Source: Viridibacillus arenosi (GTDB taxonomy: Bacteria; Bacillota; Bacilli; Bacillales_A; Planococcaceae). From it: DNA of 64,000 nt. Below the pieces are notes generated by a model, which saw only the letters and a program-made list of their open reading frames with translations, made no database searches and was not told the origin of the DNA. The stretch is from positions 1 to 64,000 of the forward strand of contig NZ_MSPW01000013.1 in the NCBI RefSeq assembly GCF_001955655.1, written 5' to 3'. The position numbers were made by a program, and so were the translations under genes. Shown piece after piece: positions 53,802 to 59,983 of this stretch (position 1 is the first letter of the stretch; each line of letters begins with the position of its first letter).

Positions 53802-54779
53802 TTACTTCCAAATTGCAACAGCTTGTGATCCGAGTTTCTTATAACTTTTGAAAAAGCTAGTTTCGTCGTGAGAAACATAGCCGTGTAACGGATCCATTAC
53901 AATTACTTTATCATCCATATGCCCAGTTAGAACAACAGCATGAAGATTACGATACATATCCAGTTTTCTATTTGTTCCCTTAACCCACCAGCCTTCTTTA
54001 AAAGTAGGCTTAGATAGATCAAGTGTAACCCAAACTACAACAGGTACTCCCTCTTGAACAAGCGAGACTATTTCCTCTGCACTTTGACCACTTACATTTT
54101 CTACTTTCAACGATACGTCCTTGTCTTTTGCTATTTTCTTTGCTACCTTTTCAATCACTGGCGCAAAGACATAGGTACCTGTAAGTTTGTTAAATGGATC
54201 ACCCGCATACGCTTTTGCTGGATCAGGACCTATGCGTTTATTCCCTTTTTCAACAATCTCTTGTTTTGGTAAATAGTTTTTAGCCATATCTGTTTTTGAT
54301 AAATTTAACCCGTAATAATTAAGTGCTGCAGTTAAAGCTGTGATTTCACAGCCATGGGGTAGTTCAGGATTTTGCATTATGATCGGCACATCTAATTGCT
54401 GTTCCTCACGTTCAAAATACGTCTCCAACACTACATAGCCCATATCTTCTTGAATCGTCACAACTTTACCGACACTTTTTTCCTGTTCACTATCATCTGT
54501 ATAAATTGATGAAGGGACAAACAAATATTGATGCCCTTCTTGTAAGTCAGTAATGATAGCTTCTCCTTCTATATCCCCAGTCGCTGTCGTTACATCCTCA
54601 TTCGTCTCCATATCTCGGACGGTCACTTTCATATCAGGTATCGGCGTGCGGCTACCGAATTCAACAATGAGTACTTTTATGCCCTCATCTAGCTGCTTTT
54701 CTTTTGCTGGGGAAATGCTGCTGCAACCGCTCACTGCTACCAGCAGTACAAAGCAAAAGAGGAGCAGCCTCATTGGCAT
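53802..54779 (-). CDS. C39-like cysteine peptidase lipoprotein
   Basis: A 325-residue secreted lipoprotein with signal peptide MPMRLLLFCFVLLVAVSGC. A beta-rich domain (about 25-125) precedes a papain-like C39_2 domain with catalytic Cys in LPHGCEITALTAALNYYG, His in RNLHAVVLTGH and Asp in VMDPLHGYVS. YvpB of B. subtilis is similar. Starts at 54779 or 54773 both fit AGAGG; 54797 is a TTG without a site. Lies 51 bp after asnB and is probably in the same transcript. An extracellular peptide or wall substrate is likely. Confidence 0.82.
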   Translation of the reverse strand: MPMRLLLFCFVLLVAVSGCSSISPAKEKQLDEGIKVLIVEFGSRTPIPDMKVTVRDMETNEDVTTATGDIEGEAIITDLQEGHQYLFVPSSIYTDDSEQEKSVGKVVTIQEDMGYVVLETYFEREEQQLDVPIIMQNPELPHGCEITALTAALNYYGLNLSKTDMAKNYLPKQEIVEKGNKRIGPDPAKAYAGDPFNKLTGTYVFAPVIEKVAKKIAKDKDVSLKVENVSGQSAEEIVSLVQEGVPVVVWVTLDLSKPTFKEGWWVKGTNRKLDMYRNLHAVVLTGHMDDKVIVMDPLHGYVSHDETSFFKSYKKLGSQAVAIWK

Positions 54780-54829
54780 TTTACCTCTCATATCCAATGC
54801 TGATGATCCCTTCTACTTATCACTTGTTT

Positions 54830-56650
54830 TTAGCTGAAATATTTTTTGTACCAAACTAAGAACATATAAATTGTCCAGATTTTACGTTGATTTTTCGCTT
54901 TGCCTTCGTAATGGTCTGTTAATAATTTAACAATTGCTTGTTGGTCAAAGAATTGTGCTGCTTCTGGAGATTCAAATGATTCTTTAATCTTGTTGAAGTA
55001 TTTTTCTTCTTGTATCCATAAACGAATTGGTACTGGGAAACCGATTTTTTTACGATTTGCCCATGCTTCAGGCAATGCGCGTTTAGAAGCTACACGGAAT
55101 GCATATTTCGTATCAACATCATTAACTCGGTAGCGAGTCGGTACTTTCGAAGCCACTTTCATTACTTCTTTATCAAGGAATGGTACGCGCAATTCAATTG
55201 AGTGCGCCATACTCATTTTATCTGCTTTTAATAAAATATCGTCGACTAACCATAAGTTTAAGTCTAAGATTTGTTTTTTCGTTAAATCGTCTTCGCCTGC
55301 AGCCTTTTTATAAACAGGCATTACGATATCTTTGACAGATGGTGCATCGTTATATTTTGCTGTTAAAATATTAGCTGCTTCTTGCTCTTCGAAGATGTGT
55401 GCTTGTCCAATAAATGTTTCCTCTACTGGTAAGCCACCTTTCATCAAGAAGTGTTTACCTCTTACTTCTGGAAGCATTTTGGCAACTTCAGATACTGGAC
55501 GACGGATGAAGCCCGGTACTTTTTTATATTTTTTCATAGACGATGATTCGTCGTATTCTTCATAACCACCAAATAATTCATCGGCACCTTCACCAGATAA
55601 CACTACTGTTACATGTTTGCGTGCAAGCTCAGCTAAGAAGTAAAGTGGTACGATTGATGGGTTTGAATGTGGTTCATCCATAATATATTGAATCTCATCG
55701 ATTTTGTTAAAGCATTCTTCTGGATCAAGTACTTCATTGACATTTTCAATACCGAGCTCTTTAGATAACTCTTTTGCAGTGTCAATTTCAGAGAAGTTTT
55801 GAGCGCTAAAACCTACCGTGAAAGTTTTATCTGGTTTTAAAACAGAGGCTACATAGCTTGAGTCAACACCACTTGATAGGAATGAACCAACTTTAACATC
55901 TGAGATTTGGTGTGCTTTAATTGAGTCACGCACGACACTATCGATCTCTTCAACGATTTCATCAAGTGGACGCTCTTCAGGATTAAATTTTGGTTCCCAG
56001 TAGCGAGTAGTTGTCACTTTGCCATTTTCGTACGTCATATAGTGAGCTGCTGGCAATTTGAAAACACCCTTAAAGAATGTCTCGTTTAACACTGGGAATT
56101 GGAATGTTAAATAAGGCTTTAACGCTTTTTCATTTAATACTTTATCGAAATGTGGATGTGGCAAGAAGGTTTTAATTTCTGAACCGAACATTAAAGTACC
56201 ATTCATATGGGCATAATAAAATGGTTTAATACCGAACATATCACGTGCAGCAAATGCTCGTTTTTTGTTACGATCCCAAATAACGAATGCGAACATACCA
56301 CGTAATTTAGTTACTAATTTAGTACCGTATTCTTCATAACCATGAATTAAAACTTCACTATCTGTTTCAGTTGTAAATGTATGCCCTTTTTCTATTAGGT
56401 CTTTACGGATATCTTGATAGTTATAAATTTCACCATTGAAAATTAATACTAAAGATTGGTCTTCATTATACAAAGGTTGGCTACCATTTTCTAAGTCAAT
56501 AATACTTAAACGACGGAAACCAAGTGCAGCTTCACCATCTGTAAAAGTACCTGCAGAGTCTGGTCCACGGTGAATAATTTGATTCATCATATTCTCTAAC
56601 ACTACGTCAGGGTTTGAAACCTCACCTATAAATCCTGTAAATCCACACAT
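54830..56650 (-). CDS. asnB: Asparagine synthetase (glutamine-hydrolysing) or AsnH-like amidotransferase
   Basis: A 606-residue enzyme. Glutaminase with nucleophile Cys at residue 2 (MCGFTGFIGE), HRGPDSAGT and FNGEIYNYQDI; the synthetase half has SFLSSGVDSSYVASVL (PP-loop) and LSGEGADELFGGYEEY. The ATG at 56650 is needed to expose Cys after Met removal, so 16 upstream codons are rejected. It converts Asp to Asn. Lactococcus AsnH, of the same family, instead amidates D-Asp in peptidoglycan, and the neighbours here make that worth testing. Confidence 0.93.
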   Translation of the reverse strand: MCGFTGFIGEVSNPDVVLENMMNQIIHRGPDSAGTFTDGEAALGFRRLSIIDLENGSQPLYNEDQSLVLIFNGEIYNYQDIRKDLIEKGHTFTTETDSEVLIHGYEEYGTKLVTKLRGMFAFVIWDRNKKRAFAARDMFGIKPFYYAHMNGTLMFGSEIKTFLPHPHFDKVLNEKALKPYLTFQFPVLNETFFKGVFKLPAAHYMTYENGKVTTTRYWEPKFNPEERPLDEIVEEIDSVVRDSIKAHQISDVKVGSFLSSGVDSSYVASVLKPDKTFTVGFSAQNFSEIDTAKELSKELGIENVNEVLDPEECFNKIDEIQYIMDEPHSNPSIVPLYFLAELARKHVTVVLSGEGADELFGGYEEYDESSSMKKYKKVPGFIRRPVSEVAKMLPEVRGKHFLMKGGLPVEETFIGQAHIFEEQEAANILTAKYNDAPSVKDIVMPVYKKAAGEDDLTKKQILDLNLWLVDDILLKADKMSMAHSIELRVPFLDKEVMKVASKVPTRYRVNDVDTKYAFRVASKRALPEAWANRKKIGFPVPIRLWIQEEKYFNKIKESFESPEAAQFFDQQAIVKLLTDHYEGKAKNQRKIWTIYMFLVWYKKYFS

Positions 56651-56734
56651 ATATTTAAATTCTCCTATCTTGTTACATTCAGTCATATATTTTAACACGC
56701 ACTAGTTTGCTTTATAATAAAAAATCACATAGTA

Positions 56735-56763
56735 ATTATACGCTATTTTCTCTATTTCTCCAA
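56735..56763 (-). promoter_or_regulatory. sigma-A promoter of asnB
   Basis: Minus-strand TTGGAG (56758-56763), 17-base spacer, TATAAT (56735-56740). It leaves a leader of about 77 nt before the asnB start. Confidence 0.65.
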
Positions 56764-56837
56764 TGTTTGTCTATGATAACAAAGTCATTTTATCGCCTAG
56801 TATCCACGATTATTATACTATTTCCTCGCAAAATCGA

Positions 56838-56866
56838 AAAAGATTGCCACCAAGTAGCAATCTTTT
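56838..56866 (-). terminator. terminator of the FbpA-like gene
   Basis: AAAGATTGC/GCAATCTTT stem with a nine-base loop, followed on the minus strand by TTTTTCG. It overlaps the stop of the small gene. Confidence 0.8.
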
Positions 56867-57017
56867 ATTGACAATGCTTTTGATATTCTTCCACAAGCTC
56901 CTCTATAGATACTTGATAAAGCTGTTGATCATTAACTTTAAAAACACCTAACGCCATTAAATCATCTATAATATGCATCTTTTTATTTTCTTCTAATTGT
57001 TCTCGTTGTTCAATCAT
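56865..57017 (-). CDS. FbpA-like small protein
   Basis: A 50-residue protein below the usual ORF length cut-off, starting MIEQREQLEENKKMHIIDDL. The core IIDDLMALGVFKVNDQQLYQ followed by VSIEELVEEY matches the Fur-regulated basic protein (FbpA) family pattern. AAAGGG lies eight bases before ATG and a terminator sits at the end. B. subtilis FbpA is basic and helps the iron-sparing response with a small RNA; this protein is acidic and no clear Fur box was found, so only family-level similarity is claimed. Confidence 0.7.
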   Translation of the reverse strand: MIEQREQLEENKKMHIIDDLMALGVFKVNDQQLYQVSIEELVEEYQKHCQ

Positions 57018-57074
57018 TTAAAAAACCCTTTCTTACATAAATTGCTCCATTATCCATACCCGAAAGTTCGTAAA

Positions 57075-57680
57075 TTAAACAATTTGCTTACATTTTGACC
57101 CGATACTTGGCAACCCCTTTTTCATCCCTTTGTATACAAGATAGCCTAATATCGCACCCAATGTATTTAACCAAAGATCATCTACATCAGTACTACGCAT
57201 TTGTGGTAGTTGCATTGTTTCGATAAAGAAAGATAAACTCAAAGCTGTAATAAAAACATAAGGAAACATCTCCATCTTGCGCCATAACAGTGGTAGTAAA
57301 AAACCAATTGGCATGAAAATGGCTATATTACCAAGAAAGTTAATGAAAAATGGCTGCCATAAATCTAAATAATGAATAGCGTTATACACATCCGTGAACA
57401 CTTGGAACAATTTTAAATTCACACCTAAAATCATATCCTCTTGGAAGCGCATTTGAAGATGCTGTAGACTCATGCCATTTCTAGGTACGATTGTTTCATA
57501 GAACAAACCAATTACATACACAGAAAAGAACAATAACCCTATTTCATGCCACCTATTAGTCGGAGGATTCCCTTTTCTTTTGCGAGACTTGAATCGTAAA
57601 TAAACGACAAAAGGAATCGCCACAATCATAACAGGGATCATTTCAAGTAGGTAATACAGTATATCTGACAACCTTTTCAC
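57075..57680 (-). CDS. VanZ-family membrane protein
   Basis: A 201-residue protein with four or five membrane spans. The VanZ pattern is visible in NFLGNIAIFMPIGFLLPLLW and SFFIETMQLPQMRSTDVDDLWLN. VanZ relatives give low-level glycopeptide tolerance by an unknown mechanism and are common in Bacillales. The start is GTG with only a weak ribosome site. Isolated gene. Confidence 0.82.
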   Translation of the reverse strand: MKRLSDILYYLLEMIPVMIVAIPFVVYLRFKSRKRKGNPPTNRWHEIGLLFFSVYVIGLFYETIVPRNGMSLQHLQMRFQEDMILGVNLKLFQVFTDVYNAIHYLDLWQPFFINFLGNIAIFMPIGFLLPLLWRKMEMFPYVFITALSLSFFIETMQLPQMRSTDVDDLWLNTLGAILGYLVYKGMKKGLPSIGSKCKQIV

Positions 57681-58237: not shown

Positions 58238-59983
58238 TTAATGAGTATATTGTTTTTTACTATTCACTATTATTTGTTTTAAAATTGTTAGTTTACCAAT
58301 GACGATTTGTGATATATCTGCAAGCTCCACTAAGTACTCTTCAGCAAGAGCTTGATTACCAGCGTTATACGCATGTACAGCTTTTTTGGCAACTTCATGT
58401 ACTAGCGCATGAGGCTTTTCTAACTCTTTATAAGCAGGCTCTGTACCTAACAATTCTCTTCCTTTTCCGTAGTACCAGACTCCAAGACGAGAATCTTTGT
58501 GAGAAGAAATATCATGTTCACTCATCTGTTCAAAACCGAGCATTAAATTATAAATTCTCCAACGCCATAATAAATGATCTGTAATAGTTAATTCTATAAT
58601 ATCTTCTTGACTAATTATAAAGTTTTTCGAAATAGTTTCTGTACGATAATGATTAATCATTTTACTTAATTCATAAATTTCTTCACCTGTTTTATAGGAA
58701 ATATCTTTACTACGACTTGAATTTTCGGCAATGTTTTTATTACGGATTGTAATTTCATTTGCAGCTGCTGCTTGTTGATGCGTAGTACTAGCGATTTCTT
58801 TAAAATGCATACCCTGCTGTTGTAAAGCAATGTTAAGATCTGCTAAAGCACTTGAGATATTCGCAGTTTCATTTACACCTCGATGCAAATCCTCTGCTGA
58901 CTTCTTCGTAAGCGCATCAATATTATTTGTGATTTCTAAGAGCTTCTTAATATCATTATGAATGGATTGTACCGAGGATTTCGTATTATCCGCTAGTTTA
59001 CGAACCTCTTCCGCAACAACAGCAAAACCTTTACCGGCTTCGCCAGCACGTGCCGCTTCAATTGAAGCATTTAACGCTAACAGATTTGTTTGTTCTGCGA
59101 TCCCCTTTATGAATTCCATTAATTGCGAAACACTTTTCACACGCTCAACTAACTCTGTTACATTATCCTGTACTTGATGATGCCCCCCATCAGTAGATTT
59201 CAATAATTGCGTTACATTTTGCAAGGCATCTATACCATTATGTAATTCTTTCAATGAAGATTGTGTATGCTGTGAGACTTCCCCCACAGATGCGGCAATT
59301 TCATCGACACTTTCATCTAGTTGTTCCATAGATGATTTCACAGACAAAACGTCTTGCTCTTGTCTTTCTTGGAATTGAATTAGATTTTTAATCTGATCTA
59401 GTTGCACATTATATTTAATAATTTCACCCAATCCATTTATAATTGATCCTGCTTGAATTTCTATATAAGTTTCAACAATTAGCTGTTGATCAATCGTAAC
59501 AATACTATCGTAAGCAAGTAACACATCCATCATTTTCTTACGGTCTTTAGGAAAAGCTTCAACGATTAAAGGAATTATAAATTGGTTGATAAGCGTGTAT
59601 GCTGAAATCATCCAGTTTGGTAGTACACCTATTTTGGCATGGGTATAAGCAATTTTCCTTCTACGGAAAATATAATTTAAATCTAACTCATCTTGGAAAA
59701 TACTCATAAAATGCTTATGAATTAACTTTTTCAGTTTAACTACAGATGAATGTTGATCGATTACTTCTTTAAATTCATCAATTTGCATTAAACGATCGTA
59801 AAACTTGTCTAAAATCATTTCGTGGTTTTTCTCATAAATCTCCTTTAACTCCGCGACAGATCCCCGACCCACTTGTGATAATCCTAAAAAATTCAATTTT
59901 TCCTGAAAACGTTCATTGGAAGTAATATCTGAACCAGGTGTAGTTGAAAAATATTGATAATGACCTTTCGTTTTACCAAACAT
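58238..59983 (-). CDS. hemAT: HemAT-type globin-coupled chemoreceptor with C-terminal CZB domain
   Basis: A 581-residue soluble receptor, about 150 residues longer than B. subtilis HemAT. Residues 1-190 form a protoglobin with proximal His115 in [14 protein letters not shown]. Residues about 200-440 are the methyl-accepting signalling domain ([20 protein letters not shown]). Residues about 465-575 match a chemoreceptor zinc-binding (CZB) domain: DHLLWRWR (His470), [11 protein letters not shown] and HALVH (His525, His529). The usual zinc-ligand Cys of the CxLGxW motif is Ser498 here. It should sense oxygen by haem. Start follows AAGGGGATATGT. Confidence 0.9.

Follow-up and report, generated by a model that had tools for sequence, protein, structure and literature searches.

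What does a chemoreceptor sense when it joins a haem globin to a CZB domain that has lost its zinc-ligand cysteine? Such a receptor is encoded in a 64,000-nucleotide stretch of Viridibacillus arenosi DNA (the window). Its ORF (P0001; 58238..59983, minus strand, as are all of its parts given below) has an ATG start and a TAA stop and encodes 581 amino acids. The gene runs from 59983 to 58238, a strand assignment absent from an earlier sequence-only reading of the locus. The plus strand of the same interval has stops throughout.

Domains and ligand residues of the receptor

The sequence-only reading described a HemAT-like sensor fused to a CZB domain and proposed an HMM search as a check. All three domains exceed their Pfam cut-offs. 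The protein carries a Protoglobin domain at residues 23-175 (59459..59917; PF11563, 5.5e-31, 108 bits) that also matches Bacillus subtilis HemAT (1or4, E 1.2e-15), and an MCP signalling domain at residues 269-417 (58733..59179; PF00015, MCPsignal, 5.5e-33). The CZB domain at residues 470-536 (58376..58576; PF13682, 1.8e-14) is a strong match (54.3 bits; cut-off 29.4). The tail beyond the signalling domain is present as described, but its length is nearer 125 than the 115 residues first estimated.

His115 (59639..59641) occupies the position of the proximal haem ligand and Tyr62 (59798..59800) that of the distal haem pocket. Both align ungapped with residues 123 and 70 of B. subtilis HemAT (1or4), which we take to be its proximal and distal haem residues. 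The protein thus has the Protoglobin domain, proximal His and distal Tyr of a HemAT-type sequence, as well as the HemAT-type architecture of an MCP domain without a membrane segment. Hydropathy identified no such segment anywhere in the protein: the highest 19-residue value is 1.51, and the usual threshold is about 1.6. A CheA match was found in the same genome. HemAT of B. subtilis is alike in all these features and differs in having no CZB domain; indeed, among 14 control genomes, B. subtilis matches Protoglobin and not CZB, as the earlier reading had said. TlpD of Helicobacter pylori, McpA of Salmonella and DgcZ of Escherichia coli have the CZB domain in common with the window protein by Pfam, and weakly by fold.

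The CZB residues stand exactly where they had been placed. Three zinc-ligand histidines, His470 (58574..58576), His525 (58409..58411) and His529 (58397..58399), are kept and Ser498 (58490..58492) replaces the ligand Cys; the codons in sequence order are CAT, TCT, CAT and CAT. The possibility that a Cys lies a few residues away falls, as the whole 581-residue protein contains none. A thiol switch is therefore not possible in this protein. A passage of the CZB survey PMC8262984 lists globin as one of the domains linked to CZB receptors. The survey also describes CZB position 1 as 'approximately 100% conserved as a Cys' and regards the 3His/1Cys motif as ubiquitous; globin-CZB receptors and the near-universal Cys are thus already in print. 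The window protein instead has the set HSHH, and judged by these aligned ligands it is a CZB-fold protein and not a CZB zinc sensor as defined.

Our preferred reading, which we hold at a probability of about 70%, is that the window protein is a haem oxygen receptor whose CZB domain is zinc-silent and has been kept for coupling or dimerisation. It would act as a cytoplasmic HemAT-like receptor for oxygen or another haem ligand, and its CZB would hold no regulatory zinc and have a structural role. The earlier reading had offered three outcomes of the Cys loss: altered metal binding, insensitivity to oxidants or a purely structural role. The loss itself is confirmed, and the second and third of these are the best supported.

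A group of receptors with Ser or Thr at the zinc-Cys column

The altered ligand was first seen as a property of a single copy, which proved too narrow. Among 182 distinct globin-CZB proteins, 48 have Ser or Thr at the zinc-Cys column and the other 134 have Cys. Cys is present in 52/52 non-globin CZB domains, 44 of which are HCHH; the other eight appear as '-CHH', being short profile matches that begin after the first His and do not cover its column. On these alignments the sharing of Ser/Thr is not due to chance. The nearest named relative, Viridibacillus soli, has an ortholog with 86% identity over the full length that shares the gene neighbours and the Ser. The dN/dS against this ortholog is 0.077 for the ORF and 0.06 for the CZB domain, the latter a rough value as dS is 1.35. 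A one-off sequencing error or pseudogene is ruled out by the same Ser in V. soli and by Ser or Thr in 48 distinct proteins. The relatives examined with 52-64% identity have Ser at the Cys column, or Thr in three of them; the exception is a pair, L056 and L057 (53% identity), that has Cys. In the host family, 61 of 261 genomes have a match with an E value of 1e-70 or lower, a count that includes the distant sister type described below.

His115 is kept in all 48 full-length Ser/Thr proteins. The zinc histidines are not: 39 of the 48 have also lost His525 and/or His529, mainly to Phe or Tyr. Among 41 dereplicated Ser/Thr rows, His470 is kept in 41/41, His525 is replaced by Phe or Tyr in 26/41 and His529 by Tyr or Gln in 16/41. 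The three histidines remain (HSHH) in nine of the 48 proteins, namely the window protein, its 86% ortholog and seven others.

These nine proteins bear on a second reading, in which the window protein remains a sensor of both inputs, with haem for oxygen and a lower-affinity site of three His (plus Ser or water) that detects labile zinc and has ceased to react with oxidants. That the window protein itself retains the three His counts against our preferred reading, and several of the HSHH relatives lie on early branches. Substitution of the CZB Cys elsewhere lowers zinc affinity only about tenfold and leaves femtomolar binding, and McpA with Cys changed to Ala still responds to zinc depletion and O2, according to passages of the 2026 preprint PMC13370339. 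Since Cys-substituted CZBs can bind and answer zinc, zinc sensing by the window copy is possible. The effect on structure can be larger: an excerpt of PMC6715182 reports local unfolding over 22 residues in the Cys-to-Ala CZB of TlpD, which means that a Ser CZB may retain only part of its fold, and the portion of PMC8262984 on DgcZ C52A describes lost coordination and zinc held less firmly in simulations. Against a dual sensor, two of the three His decay repeatedly in close relatives without loss of the gene, and zinc is thus not essential to what these relatives share. We consider the dual sensor rather unlikely, and favour a zinc-silent CZB in the window protein.

The replacements are not random, with Ser/Thr at 498, Phe/Tyr at 525 and Tyr/Gln at 529, and CZB positions I467, R474 and F484 are fixed in the Ser/Thr rows and different in the other rows. 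The Ser/Thr CZB could for these reasons be imagined to have gained a new ligand or partner, be it another metal, a small molecule or a protein. It is simpler, however, to suppose that aromatic residues fill a core position left empty, and there is no candidate ligand. We regard such a gain as improbable and retain the zinc-silent domain as the better explanation.

Genomes of the host family also encode CZB proteins of about 420-450 amino acids (L216-L225) with CxFGxW motifs, a short CZB match and no globin match.

Reciprocal loss of haem and zinc sites

The V. arenosi genome encodes a sister receptor (P0002/L001; G000:C1:64348-66072, plus strand) with the same three domains. It has Phe at the haem-His column, has lost the distal Tyr as well and keeps all four zinc ligands (HCHH); this copy was not visible to the sequence-only reading. 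Haemless paralogues of this type often share a genome with the window protein's relatives and differ from the window protein in their identity to it (about 31%), the missing haem His and the intact HCHH. The sister is most likely a zinc/redox receptor.

This reciprocity holds across the sample, which was drawn from the host family and other Bacilli. Of 192 distinct Bacilli globin-MCP-CZB receptors, 42 have both sites, 50 have the haem His and an incomplete zinc site, 100 are haemless with HCHH and none lacks both. The 182 aligned proteins, window protein included, divide into 42, 50, 90 and 0; the ten additional haemless relatives, none identical to the 182, are all HCHH. The 50 with an incomplete zinc site are the 48 Ser/Thr proteins, one with Pro470 and one with Asp525. 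The distal Tyr tracks the haem His, being present in 91/92 proteins with His115 and 5/90 without it. In the 71 dereplicated haemless rows the haem-His column holds Phe, Leu or Ile, and all 71 are HCHH. The idea of a two-input sensor, raised earlier for the window protein, fits the 42 of 192 dual relatives and fits the window protein itself less well.

The globin profile was made with haemless rows included, and eleven haemless proteins were therefore tested independently against Pfam. All 11 exceed the Protoglobin cut-off of 25 bits (34.5 bits for the sister, 30-99 bits for the other ten), which rules out a circular globin call for this group. Misalignment of the haem His was rejected too: the haemless proteins share no His in that helix (none in 23 residues of L069) and have lost Tyr62 as well. 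A shifted haem ligand may exist in single members, for example the sister, which has His-His four and five residues before a Pro. An extract of PMC7542364 reports that ethanol binds the HemAT globin without haem, so that haemless globins could have some other ligand.

Among the family matches listed, some of about 430 amino acids were left out, as were eight matches from outside the family (two of G607 and one each of G328, G329, G363, G578, G586 and G290). The 182 also leave out L002, L003, L213 (the window itself), identical copies, L116, in which there is no CZB frame, and five truncated proteins. Of the truncated proteins, L058, L060 and L061 have Ser and L136 is HCHH, with the haem column missing in all four; L209 has Phe at the haem column and HC before its end is cut off. 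The alignment is uncertain for three counted proteins that share 21-24% identity with the window protein: L161 with Pro470, L165 with Asp525 and L164, whose haem column holds Gln. Of 28 loci from outside the class that were examined from a phylum search, none has a globin. Ascertainment by the CZB profile was rejected as the cause of the empty class, as all 89 genomes found by a whole-protein P0002 query are also in the CZB list. Each of these genomes has one relative at E 1e-90 or better. The search scored five candidates per genome, and a double mutant that is badly degraded could escape it.

The sister type occurs in 89 of the 261 family genomes overall and in 40 of the 46 genomes with a Ser/Thr copy. 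This co-occurrence is an enrichment, part of which motile genomes alone could explain. It appears that a receptor which once took two inputs has given rise to copies that each specialise in one kind of sensing. In the mechanism that we propose, the ancestor would have been a haem-plus-zinc receptor. The line leading to the window protein may have given up the zinc-thiolate switch, first by change of the Cys to Ser or Thr and then, in most descendants, by loss of His525 and/or His529, a site often refilled by Phe or Tyr. The sister would have done the reverse, with the zinc ligands retained and the haem site lost.

Other globins are found in the genome. Two HemAT-sized protoglobin frames of 441 and 436 amino acids (G000:C42:136666-137127 and C39:229652-230092) have no CZB match and are therefore further candidate haem receptors in the cell. 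A Protoglobin match in a frame of only 93 amino acids (L214; G000:C41:53359-53604, minus strand) is perhaps a HemAT remnant or a truncated gene.

Probable order of losses and the retained CZB domain

A tree was made from the MCP domain alone, with both sensor domains omitted, for 156 dereplicated rows. The 41 Ser/Thr rows form one group together with L056 and L057 (SH-aLRT 99), and the 71 haemless rows form another (SH-aLRT 99). Five rows of dual or near-dual type adjoin the Ser/Thr group (L059, L117, L122, L128 and L120, the last with Tyr at the haem column). The whole tree requires five haem and four zinc changes, a small number of independent events, and the independent-pairs sign test has no power (median p 1). 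Members with all three His, the window protein among them, branch early at several points in the Ser/Thr group and occur deeper inside it too. From these positions we infer that the Cys was probably lost before His525 or His529.

The two groups differ in where ligands have changed. Positions 470, 525 and 529 require at least 0, 5 and 6 changes in the 41 Ser/Thr rows (tree length 9.18, L056 and L057 pruned) versus 0, 0 and 0 in the 71 haemless rows, with none at the Cys (tree length 11.87). At equal rates, and with tree lengths taken from the MCP domain only, the chance of all 11 of 11 ligand changes falling in the Ser/Thr rows is 1.1e-4. His115 and Tyr62 show no changes among the Ser/Thr rows, and at least 8 and at least 34 changes, respectively, among the haemless rows. 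Mean pairwise identity is 70% for the globin, 61% for the MCP domain with its linker and 60% for the CZB in the Ser/Thr rows, compared with 46, 64 and 57% in the haemless rows. The globin is thus the conserved sensor in the former and the drifting one in the latter.

These values also speak to neutral decay, under which the CZB would be a mere passenger on its way out. Ligand losses are recurrent, and the searches required a CZB or a strong whole-protein match, so that CZB-less copies could escape. In the Ser/Thr rows, however, the CZB shows no general decay: its mean identity is about the same as across the linker and MCP region (60 versus 61%), and its dN/dS is 0.06. We find neutral decay alone hardly credible. 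A CZB under purifying selection beside the signalling hairpin would probably still serve dimerisation or signal coupling, as our preferred reading holds.

L056 and L057 depart from the pattern of their group. Both have lost the haem His and are HCHH, and both source genomes (G040 and G038) also carry a Ser copy. The large MCP tree nests the pair within the Ser/Thr group, as do smaller globin, CZB and full-length trees without the site columns; in a smaller MCP tree it joins 17 Ser/Thr rows in a starred set. AU tests that held the pair outside the group do not reject this placement for single domains (CZB p 0.63, globin 0.26, MCP 0.08). The full length without six site columns does reject it (p 0.013), for a group named after the tree had been seen. 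The zinc site may have been regained after haem loss, by mutation or recombination; alternatively, the pair may descend from a branch that predates the loss of the Cys. With the pair inside the group, the Ser/Thr state may not be irreversible.

A wider proposal is that, in Bacilli, haem-oxygen and zinc-redox inputs are interchangeable on one scaffold, with one repeatedly lost and never both in the sample, and that L056 and L057 represent a re-evolved or recombined-in zinc sensor. We offer this tentatively, as a possibility that we would not yet favour. Literature text searches found, among the matches listed, no report of a Ser/Thr CZB clade or of reciprocal haem and zinc loss. The Ser/Thr proteins offer a naturally occurring collection of CZB domains that lack the ligand Cys, a residue described as universal for the family in passages of PMC8262984 and PMC13370339. 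Together with the haemless receptors they also offer pairs encoded by the same genome in which a different sensor appears to be active. An excerpt of PMC13370339 proposes that CZBs guide bacteria to oxygen via labile zinc. Whether the two inputs carry the same information could be tested in receptors that combine a haem globin with a CZB and retain one site or both.

An AlphaFold2 model of residues 435-581, built from two sequences, is a helical bundle with a mean pLDDT of 81. Its top three Foldseek hits are the DgcZ CZB (3t9o, E 0.17) and two DosC middle-domain chains (the first at E 0.2), with a probability of 0.99-1.00 and E 0.17-0.23 over the three; the DgcZ and DosC matches overall span E 0.17-0.48, which is weak for a helical bundle. 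VIA-align gives DgcZ and DosC Z scores of 11.2 and 10.7, and other four-helix sensor domains reach 12.5. Since four-helix sensors of other kinds match or exceed these two, the fold comparison agrees with the Pfam call and strengthens it little. Searching PDB sequences with the CZB profile retrieved neither DgcZ nor DosC and only designed or unrelated proteins. The same was true of a single-sequence search, where the best hit was Ika8 (E 4.1e-7) through a repeated 24-residue stretch.

DosC (EcGReg, 4zvc), a haem-globin diguanylate cyclase, resembles the window protein in its haem globin and CZB-like bundle. It differs in its GGDEF rather than MCP output and in the place of the bundle, which lies between globin and output in DosC and at the C-terminus in the window protein. 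The Pfam profile DosC_2nd (PF21118) scores 21.8 bits on the window protein and 20.6 bits on the domain alone, below its cut-off of 31. Passages of PMC5549716 name His98 and Tyr43 as the proximal and distal haem residues of DosC and describe middle-domain mutants of His223 and Lys224 as inactive in Salmonella; an E. coli study cited there found H223A normal. DosC is a possible precedent for a CZB-like domain that couples a haem globin to its output.

Downstream of the receptor gene, the interval 53802-57680 (minus strand) encodes a VanZ-like protein, an asparagine synthase and a C39-peptidase-like lipoprotein, as identified by eye from translations. The order of these three genes is conserved in V. 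soli (L008).
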